Of a stretch of DNA of 64,000 nucleotides, positions 15,378 to 60,265 are shown piece after piece (the stretch's first letter is position 1; each line of letters opens with the position of its first letter). The notes below the pieces were generated by a model, which worked only from the letters and a program-made list of their open reading frames with translations, had not been told where the DNA came from and made no database searches. The DNA is taken from positions 22,764-86,763 of the forward strand of contig JAMOZS010000005.1 of NCBI GenBank assembly GCA_023667765.1, read 5' to 3'. Source of the DNA: Roseburia sp. Its GTDB lineage: Bacteria; Bacillota; Clostridia; Lachnospirales; Lachnospiraceae. The position numbers and the translations under genes were made by a program.

Positions 15378-16710
15378 CTCTTCTGCCTCCCTCCCGCTGT
15401 AATCTGATATAAATACCCTGCACAATAAAAAACATCATCATTGTGGTCAAAACCGAAGTTCCCCCGTAACTGATAAACGGCAGAGTCACCCCTGTCAGGG
15501 GAATAAATTTAATGCCGCCTCCAATCGTAAGAAAAATCTGGAACACATACATAATTGCAATACCATATACAATAATCTGATAAAACTTATCATGAATCTG
15601 CACGGCTATCTCCATCATCATAATAAAGCTGCTCAGACAAATCAAAATCACACAGATACCGGTTATCACTCCCAGCTCCTCGCAAAAGGAAGAGAAAATA
15701 AAATCTGCATCCACAAAGGGAATGGCCTTAGGATTGCCCTTAAACAGTCCCATACCGAACCAATTGCCGCTGCCTATGGCAAACAGAGACTGGGTTATCT
15801 GATACCCCTGATTGTCAATATAACTCCAGGGGTCCTGCCATGCCAGCACTCTGATACGCACATGGTCAAAAATCAGATAGGCAATATACGCCGCCCCGCT
15901 TCCGCCGACAGCCCCCGCCAGCATATACAGATAATTCCTCGTAGCAATAAACACCACAAAAACAAAACCCACAAAAAAGATTAACGCGCTTCCCAAATCT
16001 GTGGAAATCACCAAAATAATCACATGCAGCCCCGCTACAACGGCCGTGATAAAGACCTGCATAAAAGAAGTGTTCTCCCAGAGGCTTGCCGCCAGGAAAA
16101 ACAGAAACAATATCTTAACCAGCTCCGAGGGCTGAAAGGTAATTCCCCATAAACTGAAGGATATCTTAGAACCTCTGGTAATCTCTCCAAAAATCAAAAC
16201 CCCGCTTAACATAGTAATTCCCAGCAACGCATAAACCCATGTGAGCTTCTTTAAGAAACGTATTTTTGTAAGCAGATACGGAATCAGCATGGAAAGCACC
16301 AGAGAACCGATTACTATAATATACTGACGGACTGCCTTCCGAAAAGATAATCGCGAAATCATGCATAAACCCAGGCTTAACAGCAGACACATATTGTTTA
16401 ACAGGAGCCGATTCATTCTCTCATAAATCAGGGGCGCCAGCTTAAGCGCCGTTATCAGCAAGACCTGGACAAACAGATAAAAAAACAAATACTGCATATC
16501 CTTACTAAACAGGATTAATTGATAGAAGCAAAAAAACTGTATCAAAAAAATCAGAATACTCTGGATACCGCAGACTATTCTGCGCTGGCTTTCTCTGGGG
16601 TAACGAAAGGCATAAAAATCCAACAGGGTAAACAAAACCATCCCCGCCGTCACAAAATATTTTGAAAGCTCTGCTATATATTTCAGCGTTTCCTGCATAC
16701 TCATCCTCAT
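15349..16710 (-). CDS. FtsW/RodA/SpoVE family (SEDS) peptidoglycan glycosyltransferase
   Basis: A 453-aa polytopic membrane protein of the SEDS family, which polymerises lipid II. About ten or more hydrophobic helices are visible. The conserved C-terminal signature runs from GMGLFKG through DADFIFSSFCEELG to PFISYGGTS. The N-terminal 120 residues carry extra hydrophobic segments beyond the core. ATG 16708-16710 is one of three closely spaced candidates (16710, 16704, 16698). It is directly downstream of the U32 gene and overlaps the class B PBP gene, its presumed partner. Division, elongation or spore-cortex roles cannot be told apart; a separate RodA is at 41717-42826. Confidence 0.88.
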   Translation of the reverse strand: MRMSMQETLKYIAELSKYFVTAGMVLFTLLDFYAFRYPRESQRRIVCGIQSILIFLIQFFCFYQLILFSKDMQYLFFYLFVQVLLITALKLAPLIYERMNRLLLNNMCLLLSLGLCMISRLSFRKAVRQYIIVIGSLVLSMLIPYLLTKIRFLKKLTWVYALLGITMLSGVLIFGEITRGSKISFSLWGITFQPSELVKILFLFFLAASLWENTSFMQVFITAVVAGLHVIILVISTDLGSALIFFVGFVFVVFIATRNYLYMLAGAVGGSGAAYIAYLIFDHVRIRVLAWQDPWSYIDNQGYQITQSLFAIGSGNWFGMGLFKGNPKAIPFVDADFIFSSFCEELGVITGICVILICLSSFIMMMEIAVQIHDKFYQIIVYGIAIMYVFQIFLTIGGGIKFIPLTGVTLPFISYGGTSVLTTMMMFFIVQGIYIRLQREGGRRVVRRKESPE

Positions 16711-55542: not shown

Positions 55543-58200
55543 TTAACCCTCCCATCTGTTCTTCAGCTTATTCTGCAAGCGATACAGGGTATTCAGCGCA
55601 TCCAGTGGCGTCAGATGGGAAATGTCGATTTCCTGCAGTTCCTTCAATACATCCTCATCCTTTACCGTGTCAAACAAAGACATCTGCGCCAAATCCACTT
55701 CGTCGTACTGTACCGCCTTTTTGCTTCGCCCGTCCCCTCTGGTATCCACAGCAATGCTCTGGATTTTATTGGTAATATCATTGTCCGTAAGCTGGTTTAC
55801 AAGCTCCTTGGCTCTGTCGATTACCATATCCGGCACACCGGCCAGCTTGGCCACCTGAATTCCATAGCTCTTGTCGGCGCCGCCCCTGATAATCTTACGC
55901 AGGAATACAATATCGTCTCCCCGCTCCTTCACGGCGATACAATAATTGTTCACATTGCTCATCTTATCCTCCAGCTCTGTGAGCTCATGGTAATGGGTGG
56001 CAAACAGAGTCTTTGCCCCCAGAAGCTTTTTGTTGCTGATATGCTCTATCACCGCCCAGGCAATAGACAGACCGTCAAAGGTAGAGGTCCCCCGGCCGAT
56101 TTCATCTAATATCAGCAGACTGTCCGAGGTGGCATTGCGCAGAATATTAGCCACCTCATTCATCTCCACCATAAAAGTGGACTGACCGCTGGCCAAATCA
56201 TCGGAAGCTCCCACACGGGTGAATATCCTGTCCACAATACCGATATCCGCACTTTTTGCGGGTACAAAGCTTCCTATCTGGGCCATCAGAACAATCAGAG
56301 CGCTCTGCCGCATATAGGTAGATTTTCCCGCCATATTCGGCCCCGTAATAACGCTGATACAATGCCTGCCGTTATCCAGATAGGTATCATTGGCAATAAA
56401 CAAATCGCTCTCTATCATCTGTTCCACTACAGGATGGCGTCCCTCCTTTATATGGATAAGTCCTTTTTCGTTCAGTCTGGGACGCACATAGCGATTGCGC
56501 TCGGCTACCAGAGACAGGGACGCATACACATCCAGTCTGGCTATGGCCTTGGCTGTGCGCTGAATACGCTCAAGCTCCATGGCGATGGAATCTCTGATTT
56601 TACAGAACAGGTCATATTCCAGTGTCTGCAGCTTATCCTCGGCATTTAAAATCGTATCCTCCAGCTCCTTTAAGCGGGGCGTCATATAACGCTCTGCATT
56701 CGCCAGTGTCTGCTTGCGGATATAATCCTCCGGAACCAAATCCTTATAGGAATTTGTCACCTCAAAGTAATAGCCGAATACCTTATTGTATTTTATCTTC
56801 AAATTCTTGATACCGGTACGTTCTCTGTCCTCCTCCTCAAGCTGCGCCAGCCACTGTTTTCCGTCCCGTTTGGCGCTTCTAAGCATATCTATCGTCTCGT
56901 CAAAGCCGTCCCGTATCATGCCGCCTTCCCGAATAGTGACAGGCGGCTCCTCCTCAATAGCGTCCGTAATCAGCCGACAGATATCCTCCAGACCGTCCAT
57001 TTCCTCACGGGCTTTCACAAGCTCCTCCTTCTGAAAGCCGTTTAACACCGTCTTAATATGAGGTATCATCTCCAGAGAATTACGGAATGCAATCATATCC
57101 CGGGGATTGGCCGTCTTATAGGTTACCTTGGAGAGCAGCCTCTCCAAATCATACACGGGATTTAAATACTCTCTGATTTCATCCCGGGACACACTGTTTC
57201 CGTTGAGCTCCTCAATAGCGTCCAGGCGGCTTTCCATTCCGGCCTTCTCTATCAGGGGCTGTTCAATCATACTGCGGAGCAGTCTCGCCCCCATAGCCGT
57301 CTTTGTCTTATCCAGCACCCATAAAAGGGAGCCTCTCTTCTGCTTTTCCCGCAAGGTTTCCGTAAGCTCCAGATTTCTCCTGGTAGAGCCGTCCAACAGC
57401 ATATATTTACTGGTCAAATAAGGATAGAGATGTGTAAAATGCTCCAGATTCGTCTTTTGGGTTTCATAAAGATACTGCAAAAGCGCCCCCGCGGCAATCA
57501 TCCCCACGGGAAACTCCAAAATACCCAGTCCCATCAGCGTATTCACCTTAAAATGCTTCTGTAAGATTCTCTTACAGCCCTCGTCATCAAACATATGGGA
57601 ATCCAGGCTGTTTACGGTAATATGTAATCTTCCCCTTAAATCCTCTACATCCGCTCCGCTCACCAGAAATGCCTCATTACAGATAATTTCCGTGGGCTCA
57701 TACTTTTGCAGTTCATCCATCAGCCGCCGGATATCCTCCACCTCTGTAAGATAATAATCACCGGTGGTCACATCCGCCGCGGAGACGCCGATAGCTGTAG
57801 GGGTATAGGCAATACACATCAGATAATTATTCCTGGATTCCTCCAGCGACTGCATATTCAGATTGGTCCCCGGCGTAACAATACGCACTACCTCCCGCTT
57901 CACCAGACCCTTGGCAAGCTTCGGGTCCTCCACCTGCTCGCAAATCGCCACCTTATAGCCTCTGCTGACCAGCTTCGTGAGATACCCCTCCACCGCATGA
58001 TAAGGTACTCCACACATGGGGGCCCGCTCCTCCAGTCCGCAGTCCTTGCCGGTCAGGGTAATCTCCAGCTCCTTCGTGACGGTCAGCGCATCCTCAAAAA
58101 ACATTTCATAAAAATCACCCAGACGATAAAACAATATACAATCGGGATATTGTTTCTTTGTCTCCATATACTGTTGCATCATGGGGGTAAGTTGTGCCAT
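55543..58200 (-). CDS. mutS: DNA mismatch repair protein MutS
   Basis: MutS recognises mispaired bases. The 885-aa protein has the mismatch wedge FYEMFFEDA, the connector and lever/clamp domains, then an ABC-type ATPase with GPNMAGKST and DEIGRGTSTFDG. ATG 58198-58200 is chosen because GGAG lies eight bases upstream and MAQLTPMMQQY is the family start. It leads mutS-mutL-miaA. A long palindromic element lies upstream. Confidence 0.97.
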   Translation of the reverse strand: MAQLTPMMQQYMETKKQYPDCILFYRLGDFYEMFFEDALTVTKELEITLTGKDCGLEERAPMCGVPYHAVEGYLTKLVSRGYKVAICEQVEDPKLAKGLVKREVVRIVTPGTNLNMQSLEESRNNYLMCIAYTPTAIGVSAADVTTGDYYLTEVEDIRRLMDELQKYEPTEIICNEAFLVSGADVEDLRGRLHITVNSLDSHMFDDEGCKRILQKHFKVNTLMGLGILEFPVGMIAAGALLQYLYETQKTNLEHFTHLYPYLTSKYMLLDGSTRRNLELTETLREKQKRGSLLWVLDKTKTAMGARLLRSMIEQPLIEKAGMESRLDAIEELNGNSVSRDEIREYLNPVYDLERLLSKVTYKTANPRDMIAFRNSLEMIPHIKTVLNGFQKEELVKAREEMDGLEDICRLITDAIEEEPPVTIREGGMIRDGFDETIDMLRSAKRDGKQWLAQLEEEDRERTGIKNLKIKYNKVFGYYFEVTNSYKDLVPEDYIRKQTLANAERYMTPRLKELEDTILNAEDKLQTLEYDLFCKIRDSIAMELERIQRTAKAIARLDVYASLSLVAERNRYVRPRLNEKGLIHIKEGRHPVVEQMIESDLFIANDTYLDNGRHCISVITGPNMAGKSTYMRQSALIVLMAQIGSFVPAKSADIGIVDRIFTRVGASDDLASGQSTFMVEMNEVANILRNATSDSLLILDEIGRGTSTFDGLSIAWAVIEHISNKKLLGAKTLFATHYHELTELEDKMSNVNNYCIAVKERGDDIVFLRKIIRGGADKSYGIQVAKLAGVPDMVIDRAKELVNQLTDNDITNKIQSIAVDTRGDGRSKKAVQYDEVDLAQMSLFDTVKDEDVLKELQEIDISHLTPLDALNTLYRLQNKLKNRWEG

Positions 58201-58312
58201 GACTGATACTCCGTTTCTCCCACACAGCAGCTCCAAAGTTAAATCGAGTTATCTTGGGGATGCTGCATCGGCTTTTTATATAGTAGAAAACAGGGGGCTT
58301 AAGGGTCCTCGT

Positions 58313-58543
58313 CCGGCTGTTCGCCCAAGGGATTACACGCTGTCTGCTCCGTCAAATGGATTTTCTAAATGTTTCGATAAGATTCCAGCTATTCACGCAA
58401 CCGCCCGACATTCGCCGTCGTGGCTCAGGTCGGGCTTTTCGGGACATCCCTGTCCCGAAATTGCTGAGAGCGTGCGAAACATTAAGAAAATCACATTTGT
58501 CTGCGCATGTGACAGCTTTGTAATCTCTTGGGCGAACAGCCGG
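58313..58543. repeat. 231-bp imperfect palindrome with internal hairpins (MITE-like or structured RNA)
   Basis: Arms 58313-58376 and 58475-58543 are imperfect reverse complements; the outer 25 bases (CCGGCTGTTCGCCCAAG...) match almost exactly. The centre holds two further hairpins: GCCCGAC/GTCGGGC (58403-58435) with an inner GCC/GGC, and a perfect 10-bp stem TTTCGGGACA/TGTCCCGAAA (58437-58460). It fills most of the 394-bp gap between the SulP stop and mutS; the remaining 112 bp to mutS contain an A/T-rich TATATAA but no clear promoter or gene. No target duplication is obvious. It could be a mobile repeat or a transcribed structured RNA. Confidence 0.75.
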
Positions 58544-58594
58544 CATTCCGTCCCTTTATTCCTACGGACAATGATTCAGCGGACGTGCCCAAAG

Positions 58595-60265
58595 TCAGCC
58601 ACTGGTTGGCCTGGACTGTAAATTCCCGGCCCGTCTAAGCGCCTCGTCAATATGCAGGCAGAAATTATCTGCGCCCACCTTCTCCACAAAGCCCGCCTTC
58701 GTCATCACCTTCATGGGCTGCTCGTTCACATGGGACAATATCAGCCAAATCTTCTTCCTGTGGCAGTCCTCATACAGCTGCTCCAGATAATGCATCGCTG
58801 TGGCGTCGATAGCGTTGACGCTTCTCATGCGAAGCACCAGGCAATTTGCATTTTCGCGTAGCGTAATCTTCAAAATCTTATCCGCCGCCCCAAAGAATAA
58901 AGGCCCGCTGATTTCATAAACCATGGTATTTTCAGGCACCTGTCGGAGTGAAATACTGTCTGCGTCCTCTTCTTCCTCCTCCACATATTTCCAGCCCTCC
59001 ACCTCTGTCACATCGCTCATACGCTTCATAAAAAGTATGGCCGCCAGGACGATTCCCACCTCAATGGCAACCACCAAATCAAATACCACCGTGAGGATAA
59101 AGGTCAGCACCAGCACCAGGATATCGCTCTTAGGCGCCGTTTTACAAAGCTTATAGAACTTTCTCCACTCGGACATATTATAGGCCACCATAAACAGAAT
59201 AGCGGCTATGGCAGGCATGGGAATCAACGCCGCATAGGGCATTAAAACCACCAGAATCAACAAAAGGGTTACTGCATGCACCATTCCTGCAACAGGCGTG
59301 CGCCCGCCGTTTTTCACATTCGCCGCCGTACGGGCAATCGCTCCAGTGGCGGGAATGCCGCCGAACAAAGCGGAGGTAATGTTCCCCGCTCCCTGGGCAA
59401 TCAGCTCCATATTGGAACGATGTCTGCTGTTTACCATACTGTCCGCCACCACACAGGACAATAAAGATTCAATAGCCGCCAGAATCGCTATCGTAAAAGC
59501 GTCCGGCAACACGGCCCGAACCGTGGCATATGTAACATGCGGAAATGAAAAAACCGGAAGCTTATTGGAAATCTCATATAAATCTCCAATGGTATTTACC
59601 TGCATACCAAAACCCTTTACCATACCGATACTCACAAACACGGCAATCAGGGACGGAGGAATCCTCTTACAGATTCCCGGCAGATACGGCCAGCCGATTA
59701 AAATAACCATACACACCGCGCCCACAATAAGCGCCTGTACATTCGTTGTGCCGATAAATTCAAACACGGCCTTCAGCTTGTCCATCGTCTCTATCAAAGG
59801 CTCTTCACTCACAACCGTAAGTCCCAGAAAATCTTTAATCTGTCCGATAAAAATCGTCACGGCAATTCCCGCCGTAAAGCCGGTGGTAATGGTATAAGGA
59901 ATAAACTTAATCAGCGAACCCAGCCGCAGGAAACCCATCAGCATTAAAATCAAACCGGCCATTAAAGTCGCAATGATTAATCCGTCCATTCCGTTTTTTG
60001 CCACAATACCCGCTACAATCGTGGCAAAAGCCGCCGTGGGGCCGGCAATCTGCACCCTGCTCCCTCCCAGAAAGGAAATTACAAAGCCTGCCGTAATGGC
60101 CGTATAGATTCCCTTTTCCGGCGTTACTCCACTGGCCAATGCCAGCGCAATCGAAAGCGGCAGCGCAATAATCGCAACAATAATGCCTGCCACCACATCC
60201 TTTACAAACTGTTCTTTCGTGTATCCTTTCATCACCGAAAACAGCTTCGGCTTTAGCTTTTCCAT
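58595..60265 (-). CDS. SulP family anion transporter with STAS domain
   Basis: A 556-aa SulP/SLC26-type transporter. About 12 or more helices carry the family start VVAGIIVAIIALPLSIALALASG, the core AGPTAAFATIV and AARTAANVKNGG-like IARTAANVKNG. A cytoplasmic STAS domain follows (about 455-550, SGPLFFGAADKI). Substrate (sulfate, bicarbonate or a dicarboxylate) cannot be assigned; no sulfate assimilation or carbonic anhydrase gene is near. ATG 60263-60265 has GGGAGG seven bases upstream. Confidence 0.9.
   Translation of the reverse strand: MEKLKPKLFSVMKGYTKEQFVKDVVAGIIVAIIALPLSIALALASGVTPEKGIYTAITAGFVISFLGGSRVQIAGPTAAFATIVAGIVAKNGMDGLIIATLMAGLILMLMGFLRLGSLIKFIPYTITTGFTAGIAVTIFIGQIKDFLGLTVVSEEPLIETMDKLKAVFEFIGTTNVQALIVGAVCMVILIGWPYLPGICKRIPPSLIAVFVSIGMVKGFGMQVNTIGDLYEISNKLPVFSFPHVTYATVRAVLPDAFTIAILAAIESLLSCVVADSMVNSRHRSNMELIAQGAGNITSALFGGIPATGAIARTAANVKNGGRTPVAGMVHAVTLLLILVVLMPYAALIPMPAIAAILFMVAYNMSEWRKFYKLCKTAPKSDILVLVLTFILTVVFDLVVAIEVGIVLAAILFMKRMSDVTEVEGWKYVEEEEEDADSISLRQVPENTMVYEISGPLFFGAADKILKITLRENANCLVLRMRSVNAIDATAMHYLEQLYEDCHRKKIWLILSHVNEQPMKVMTKAGFVEKVGADNFCLHIDEALRRAGNLQSRPTSG

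Follow-up and report, generated by a model that had tools for sequence, protein, structure and literature searches.

A palindrome between mutS and a SulP permease gene in Roseburia sp. belongs to TwoAYGGAY (RF01731), a dispersed element with copy-specific arms

Results and Discussion

The palindrome between mutS and the SulP permease gene

We analyzed a stretch of Roseburia sp. DNA of 64,000 nucleotides, the whole of which is called the window here. On its minus strand a SulP-family permease gene lies upstream of mutS, and the gap between them is occupied by a long imperfect palindrome. The features of the locus are as follows, with positions counted in the window.

55543..58200, minus strand: mutS, with five MutS domains; downstream neighbor of the element
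58313..58543, no strand assigned: whole imperfect palindrome, consisting of the outer arms and the TwoAYGGAY core, from arm complementarity and folds
58313..58343, no strand assigned: mutS-side outer arm, paired through its outermost 25 nt with 58519-58543
58344..58508, minus strand: TwoAYGGAY core (Rfam RF01731), 113.2 bits, model positions 1-168 of 168
58359..58376, minus strand: inner helix, 3' side in the core sense, with the TTAGAAAA motif that is almost invariant across 41 aligned cores
58403..58435, minus strand: hairpin 2, with the tip CCACGACGG, a loop variant without GGA
about 58438..58459, minus strand: hairpin 1, with the minus-strand tip ACAGGGATGT and the stem-loop GGGACAGGGATGTCCC at 58441-58456
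58475..58492, minus strand: inner helix, 5' side in the core sense, pairing with 58359-58376
58509..58543, no strand assigned: outer arm on the SulP side; its sequence, like that of the mutS-side arm, varies among the copies of the same genome
58595..60316, minus strand: SulP-family permease with a STAS domain (PF00916, PF01740); upstream neighbor of the element

The first-pass annotation of this locus had described a 231-bp imperfect palindrome with nearly matching outer 25 bases, two central hairpins, and a 64-aa minus-strand reading frame, all of which were recovered, the palindrome at the coordinates given there. The outer arms at 58313-58337 and 58519-58543 are 96% complementary over 25 nt, the second helix (58359-58376 with 58475-58492) is 94% complementary, the hairpins lie at the two central positions listed above, and the frame is present at 58352-58546. 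The predicted fold of 58313-58543 reached -129.4 kcal/mol on the plus strand (shuffled sequences, -65.6 with a standard deviation of 4.2; z -15.2) and -125.5 kcal/mol on the minus strand (z -13.2), with 0 of 200 shuffles as low in either case. The mutS start was taken as the methionine of MAQL at 58200; further starts lie upstream, and the domain search used 55543-58206.

Scanning the whole window against Rfam returned a single match, TwoAYGGAY (RF01731), on the minus strand at 58344-58508. The core matches the model over its full length, and the covariance-model score is far above the gathering score of 43, which places the core within the family. The Rfam entry spans the core alone, whereas the palindrome here also has outer arms, and these 25-nt arms fall outside the match. 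The family is described as having two terminal hairpins with AYGGAY loops; the window copy carries AGGGAT in hairpin 1 and ACGAC in hairpin 2. Rfam assigns RF01731 to the cis-regulatory type, and in a table of 2010 TwoAYGGAY is given as probably an RNA and probably not cis-regulatory. The literature passages on TwoAYGGAY provide the motif, the CsrA idea, the helix extension, and the hairpin energetics. Genome-wide copies, copy-specific arms, and missing G-U pairs go unmentioned in these main-text passages, and a wider literature search had no title on the element among the matches listed.

Copy number and distribution

TwoAYGGAY occurs in many copies and is patchily distributed. In the source genome (G000; 2.79 Mb in 101 contigs), 13 matches to RF01731 exceed the cut-off, of which 12 are full and one is partial, and blastn with the 231 bp gave 18 rows, which fall at 16 places when the window copy is counted. 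The longer blastn matches were 84-90% identical and mostly ended inside the outer arms; among the remnants, one (L014/L015) lacks the center, L016 is one half, and L017 consists of the ends alone. Within the genus, 25 of 101 genomes carry the element and 76 are without a match; 12 carriers have one match each, and the other 13 have from 6 to at least 24. A sample of the order contained 22 matching genomes among 295 at E <= 0.001 (18 over the cut-off; 11 of 129 genera), and 16 of these 22 belong to the same family as the source. No match was found in 14 control genomes, and the window copy had none among 72,556 plasmid and 50,697 phage records. Several copies in G098, G089, and G104 lie at the ends of contigs, and the element may therefore be undercounted in draft assemblies. 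The copy count that the first-pass annotation had proposed reveals a multi-copy, patchy element, and the picture it had set against its own suggestion, a single copy everywhere with neither covariation nor a transcript, is contradicted on its first two points by these counts and by the core alignment described below.

Turnover of occupied sites

Occupied sites turn over between the sister species G070 and G076. Eight of the 15 fetched G070 loci lie at the same site as one of the 15 fetched G076 loci. Seven of these common sites hold the same copy, with cores 90-98% identical, and the eighth holds different copies in opposite orientation that are 81% identical. The G076 copy L184 takes up 322 bp where G070 has 11 bp and merely a short terminator-like hairpin, and the flanks of this site align over 1448 bp at 90% identity on one side and over 184 bp at 98% on the other; one occupied site has an 11-bp direct repeat, which is also half of a terminator stem. 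At another site in G076 the complementary arms enclose, as judged by eye, a different core. The two species therefore differ at three common sites, and the multi-copy state together with these differences makes the earlier suggestion of a non-autonomous mobile element the one that fits best. Inversion of the core between its arms, considered for L175/L192, was rejected, the L192 core being 91.5% identical to G070_L187 versus 81.4% to L175.

A second hairpin-rich sequence, GCGGTACTAAGCTCGC ... CTCGCTAAGGACCGGCG, was observed between complementary arms at L223 (G076:C30, about 15711-15894), a site at which a TwoAYGGAY core is present in the sister species, and again to the left of the core in L185 (G070:C23), beside another TwoAYGGAY copy (both by eye). 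Perhaps this sequence and TwoAYGGAY are two kinds of core within the same kind of arms.

Outer arms

The arms of TwoAYGGAY are long and specific to the copy. We surveyed 124 copies from 12 genomes. Eight genomes contributed 60 regions, of which L116, L123, L127, L134, and L137, near contig ends, are outside the 124, as is the partial G000 copy L030; G006 is represented by 20 of 24 listed copies, and G070 and G076 by 15 each, of 19 and 18 matches. Anchored complementary arms were found in 118 of the 124 copies, with genome medians of 31-118 bp and 77-97% complementarity, and four arm alignments extended over at least 120 bp. The arms match each other within a copy and differ among copies. In G098, for example, the arms of 16 of the 17 copies measure 45-73 bp and are 86-100% complementary, yet most of the arm sequence changes from one copy to the next. 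Recent copies have common arms, indicating that the arms belong to the element; insertion into pre-existing palindromes as the general case was rejected on this ground and because arms reach at least 100 bp.

Arm changes between related copies were two-sided more often than expected by chance. Comparison of 13 recent paralogue pairs (645 arm pairs), which were selected by eye among the highest of 554 pairs and in which some copies recur, gave 95 one-sided and 52 two-sided changes, compared to 17.2 two-sided changes expected by chance, and 41 of the 52 led from one Watson-Crick pair to another. Compensated changes were present in 10 of the 13 pairs, the three without any all being from G104. 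Seven orthologue pairs (387 arm pairs) had 10 two-sided changes, six of them compensated, against 3.3 expected; one-sided changes, 38 in number, predominate between orthologues. Regeneration of the arms solely at transposition, which a single pair (L109/L110) had suggested, was not upheld, since in the two orthologue pairs of comparable divergence compensated and one-sided changes are mixed in much the same way.

In the arms, compensated changes comprised 45 of the transition type and 35 of the transversion type (45/80, 56%) and single changes 72 and 55, respectively, as counted in 23 of 29 preselected, non-independent pairs; the 56% share is a weak discriminator because 61% of one-step compensations in rRNA are reported to be of the transition type (PMC8794818). 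One-sided steps connected Watson-Crick with G-U pairs in 39 cases and with A-C pairs in 27. Arm mismatches outside G006 had a small G-T excess (236 G-T and 189 A-C of 6123 pairs, p 0.026), and the G-T/A-C counts by genome were 21/22 in G000, 27/8 in G104, 15/32 in G089, and 57/17 in G006. Read in the sense of the core, the arms in G098, G070, G076, G064, and G008 are rich in G on the 5' side and in C on the 3' side; G-C and C-G arm pairs number 359 versus 120 in G098 but 140 versus 120 in G000.

Pairing in the core

The covariation analysis proposed in the first-pass annotation gave a massive signal. In an alignment of 41 cores with 58% mean column identity, two-sided changes occurred at 30 of 33 consensus pairs, and the covariation score was 0.716, compared to 0.206 for shuffled alignments and no more than 0.184 for slid ones. 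We compared the non-Watson-Crick cells of the core with those of tmRNA sequences from 30 congeneric genomes, processed identically. On the pairs chosen by RNAalifold itself, TwoAYGGAY had 33 G-U and 35 A-C among 1342 cells and tmRNA had 349 and 19 among 2355, in alignments that differ in mean pairwise identity (0.50 and 0.79); this first contrast is inflated because RNAalifold picks pairs that permit G-U on the strand supplied. The strand-neutral union of the pairs from both strands gave 33 G-U and 42 A-C for TwoAYGGAY and 351 and 101 for tmRNA, and the pairs found on both strands gave 15 and 33 versus 26 and 12. Thus, on none of the three pair sets (full, union, and shared) does the sense strand of TwoAYGGAY favor wobble pairs, whereas tmRNA does so on each.

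Folded as antisense, TwoAYGGAY had 40 G-U and 15 A-C (tmRNA, 94 and 28), a possible slight wobble preference of that strand, and this excess could fit an antisense RNA. Two-sided changes in the core were 157 transitions and 251 transversions, compared to 140 and 102 in tmRNA; the transversion surplus points in the same direction as the G-U result but is dependent on divergence. The suggestion of a structured RNA in the first-pass annotation agrees with the Rfam entry, but the pairing statistics, having no sense-strand G-U excess over A-C, appear unlike those of an RNA such as tmRNA.

The GGA hairpin tip and CsrA

The tip of the core hairpins is strand-specific. A predicted hairpin with GGA in the loop or at most 3 bases from it is present in all 124 sense cores and in 7 of 124 antisense cores; 79 of the sense cores have two or more, and a copy carries one to three sites. 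The motif CANGGAYG is present on the sense strand of 112 of the 124 cores and on the antisense strand of none, in a collection whose members outside the source genome were found mainly with an RNA model containing GGA loops, a possible ascertainment in favor of retained loops. Counts from a symmetric hairpin finder (0 to 2 GGA loops per core) were discarded, as it missed many bulged or longer-loop hairpins. The strand-specific tip suggests that something reads one strand, which could be CsrA bound to RNA or a protein acting on single-stranded DNA.

According to the first possibility, TwoAYGGAY would be a CsrA-binding RNA, acting as a sponge or a 3'-UTR site, in which the GGA loops bind CsrA, the many copies titrate it, and the arms extend the stem; we regard this as the main alternative, though a less likely one. 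CsrA binding by TwoAYGGAY was already proposed in PMC4333381, and the CsrA SELEX consensus RUACARGGAUGU has its GGA in a hairpin loop (PMC7652899); a GGA tip is present in all 124 sense cores. The hairpin 1 tip of the window copy, ACAGGGATGT, matches the ACARGGAUGU part of this consensus. However, the full consensus was found in 0 of 124 copies and its inner part, ACARGGATGT, in 11. CsrB/CsrC-type CsrA-antagonist sRNAs likewise have GGA at hairpin tips, but they host numerous CsrA sites (PMC4333381), whereas a TwoAYGGAY copy has one to three and its stems show no G-U excess.

The distribution of CsrA (PF02599) favors the CsrA-binding RNA to a degree. Within the genus CsrA is common regardless, being present in 80 of 101 genomes, which were taken as the same 101 as in the carrier survey; over all completeness levels it is found in 23 of the 25 carriers versus 57 of the 76 non-carriers (p 0.056), and the source genome has two matches. 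The two genus carriers without CsrA are 59% and 73% complete, and among genus genomes at least 80% complete, a cut-off set after the data were seen, CsrA is in 23 of 23 carriers versus 50 of 64 non-carriers (p 0.009; one CsrA-negative genome is left out of this table). In other genera it is in 13 of 13 carriers, seven of them from the single genus g25, versus 12 of the 16 same-family non-carriers listed (p 0.077), six weaker carriers from other families being left out. Combined, at a completeness of at least 80%, CsrA is present in 36 of 36 carriers versus 62 of 80 non-carriers (Fisher p 0.0006, phylogeny ignored). The core stems without G-U excess, the patchy presence, and the lack of an orientation preference (see below) argue against an RNA of this kind, although template switching that far outpaces point mutation could erase the G-U signature of a true RNA. 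A second, more divergent CsrA-like gene, scoring about 60 versus about 90 bits, was observed at G000:C25:12838-12987 and in several relatives.

A proposed dispersed DNA palindrome

We hold with modest confidence that the feature in the window is a copy of a palindromic DNA element that is non-coding and dispersed and that is catalogued as the candidate RNA TwoAYGGAY (RF01731). A dispersed DNA palindrome would account for the copy number, the patchiness, the turnover, the lack of orientation, and the absence of a sense-strand wobble preference, and template switching between arms would account for arm sequences that are matched and free-running. Such an element would spread now and then within genomes and otherwise be inherited in place. 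Its arms would be kept complementary at the DNA level by template switching between them during replication, by selection for the hairpin that single-stranded or extruded DNA would form, or by both, and the GGA tip would be what a protein reads on one strand. Template switching is described as homogenizing inverted-repeat arms and restoring hairpins (PMC8604942; PMC8794818). The points against this DNA reading are the absence of a target-site duplication, of a transposase recognized by eye beside single copies, and of plasmid or phage matches, as well as the co-occurrence with CsrA together with the CsrA-like tip, which favor RNA. Further points against it are the contribution of RNAalifold's pair choice to the tmRNA contrast, the G-U counts of the antisense fold, the G-T excesses in the arms, the weakness of the transition-type test, the predominance of one-sided arm changes between orthologues, and the use of mainly an RNA model to find the copies.

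A more general claim, which we put forward tentatively and with more doubt than belief, is that TwoAYGGAY is a mobile DNA hairpin and not an RNA family, its single-stranded core being recognized via the GGA tips and its arms being re-matched by template switching. If this is true, covariation, the usual proof of RNA, would be produced here at the DNA level. Covariation is widely held to be the strongest computational evidence of a functional RNA, and here a curated family covaries without a tmRNA-like G-U preference. Comparison of G-U with A-C could then separate RNA-level and DNA-level pairing across Rfam, and TwoAYGGAY would be a natural long-palindrome system for studying arm homogenization.

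Comparison with known mobile repeats

TwoAYGGAY resembles MITEs in being non-coding, multi-copy, and built with inverted repeats. That it is a MITE of the classical kind, moved by a DDE transposase and bearing both terminal inverted repeats and target-site duplications, is nonetheless improbable. In G006 the core does lie inside a recently amplified unit of ~485-525 bp with the ends TAAATGGAAAGTTAG / CTAACTTTCCATTTA, often adjoining TA; however, no such common ends were seen around the G000, G089, G077, and G008 copies, and the G000 arms are copy-specific, so that common terminal inverted repeats are found for the larger G006 unit only. There the core may be a passenger inside another element. 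For 94 copies outside G006, the longest word common to both flanks was 5.03, compared to 4.85 in mismatched flanks, and words of at least 8 bp occurred in 1 of the 94 and in 1.6% of the null, giving no signal of a target-site duplication. In 11 of the 12 genomes with one copy, no transposase was recognized next to it by eye. In several of the G006 copies L089-L108, both unit ends have the same variant.

The dispersed DNA palindrome that we prefer also has a counterpart in REP/REPIN sequences, dispersed extragenic palindromes whose handling in the form of single-stranded DNA hairpins has been predicted or demonstrated (PMC3116915; PMC8266576) and that are associated with RAYT (TnpA-REP) transposases. 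TwoAYGGAY is likewise a dispersed extragenic palindrome, but its arms are long and copy-specific and its conserved feature is the GGA tip. In G089, and in that genome only, the arms of several copies among L138-L144 contain inverted REP-like repeats (GGGGACG ... TTTTT ... GTCCCC; by eye), which suggests a REPIN-like organization there.

Neighboring genes

A strong hairpin that insulates neighboring transcription units, as a terminator or mRNA 3'-end protector, and is kept for that role is hardly probable: terminator-like hairpins face the element on 22 of 188 flanks of 94 copies versus 8 of 340 control windows, but these controls lie 250-350 bases further out and the excess may reflect intergenic placement alone, five-T runs right of the arm and five-A runs left of it occur in 0.10 and 0.07 of the 94 copies, respectively, no terminator-like or promoter-like site was found in 58150-58700, and 76 of 101 genus genomes have no match to the element.

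The first-pass annotation had further proposed that the palindrome modulates read-through from the SulP gene into mutS. We found no support for this, neither in a terminator-like site nor in an orientation preference: relative to flanking frames, judged crudely by stop-free length alone, 103 of 104 non-G006 copies were distributed as +- 28, ++ 26, -+ 23, -- 21, and undecided 5. In addition, SulP follows mutS in 9 of 20 genus loci, with a gap of 71-185 bp compared to about 440 in the window, so these relatives with the same gene order do without the element. Inspection by eye of 400 bases at the mutS start in the 20 genus loci revealed no copy. The mutS-SulP gaps of genus relatives are too diverged for alignment, and direct site comparison was made for G070/G076 only. 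Nothing that we found ties the element to mutS expression.

Two further sequences were observed near these genes and copies. In several relatives (e.g., L034, L041, L043, L047) mutS is preceded by a hairpin (GCGGAT/GCAAAT ... ATCCGC/ATTTGC) and then TACCACAAAATATTG..TTGTAAA, a combination not seen by eye in the window. In G000, another repeat, AAGGAAGGGCTGATT ..., CACACGGATTTGCAGG, is located near the copies L020, L028, L029, and L030.
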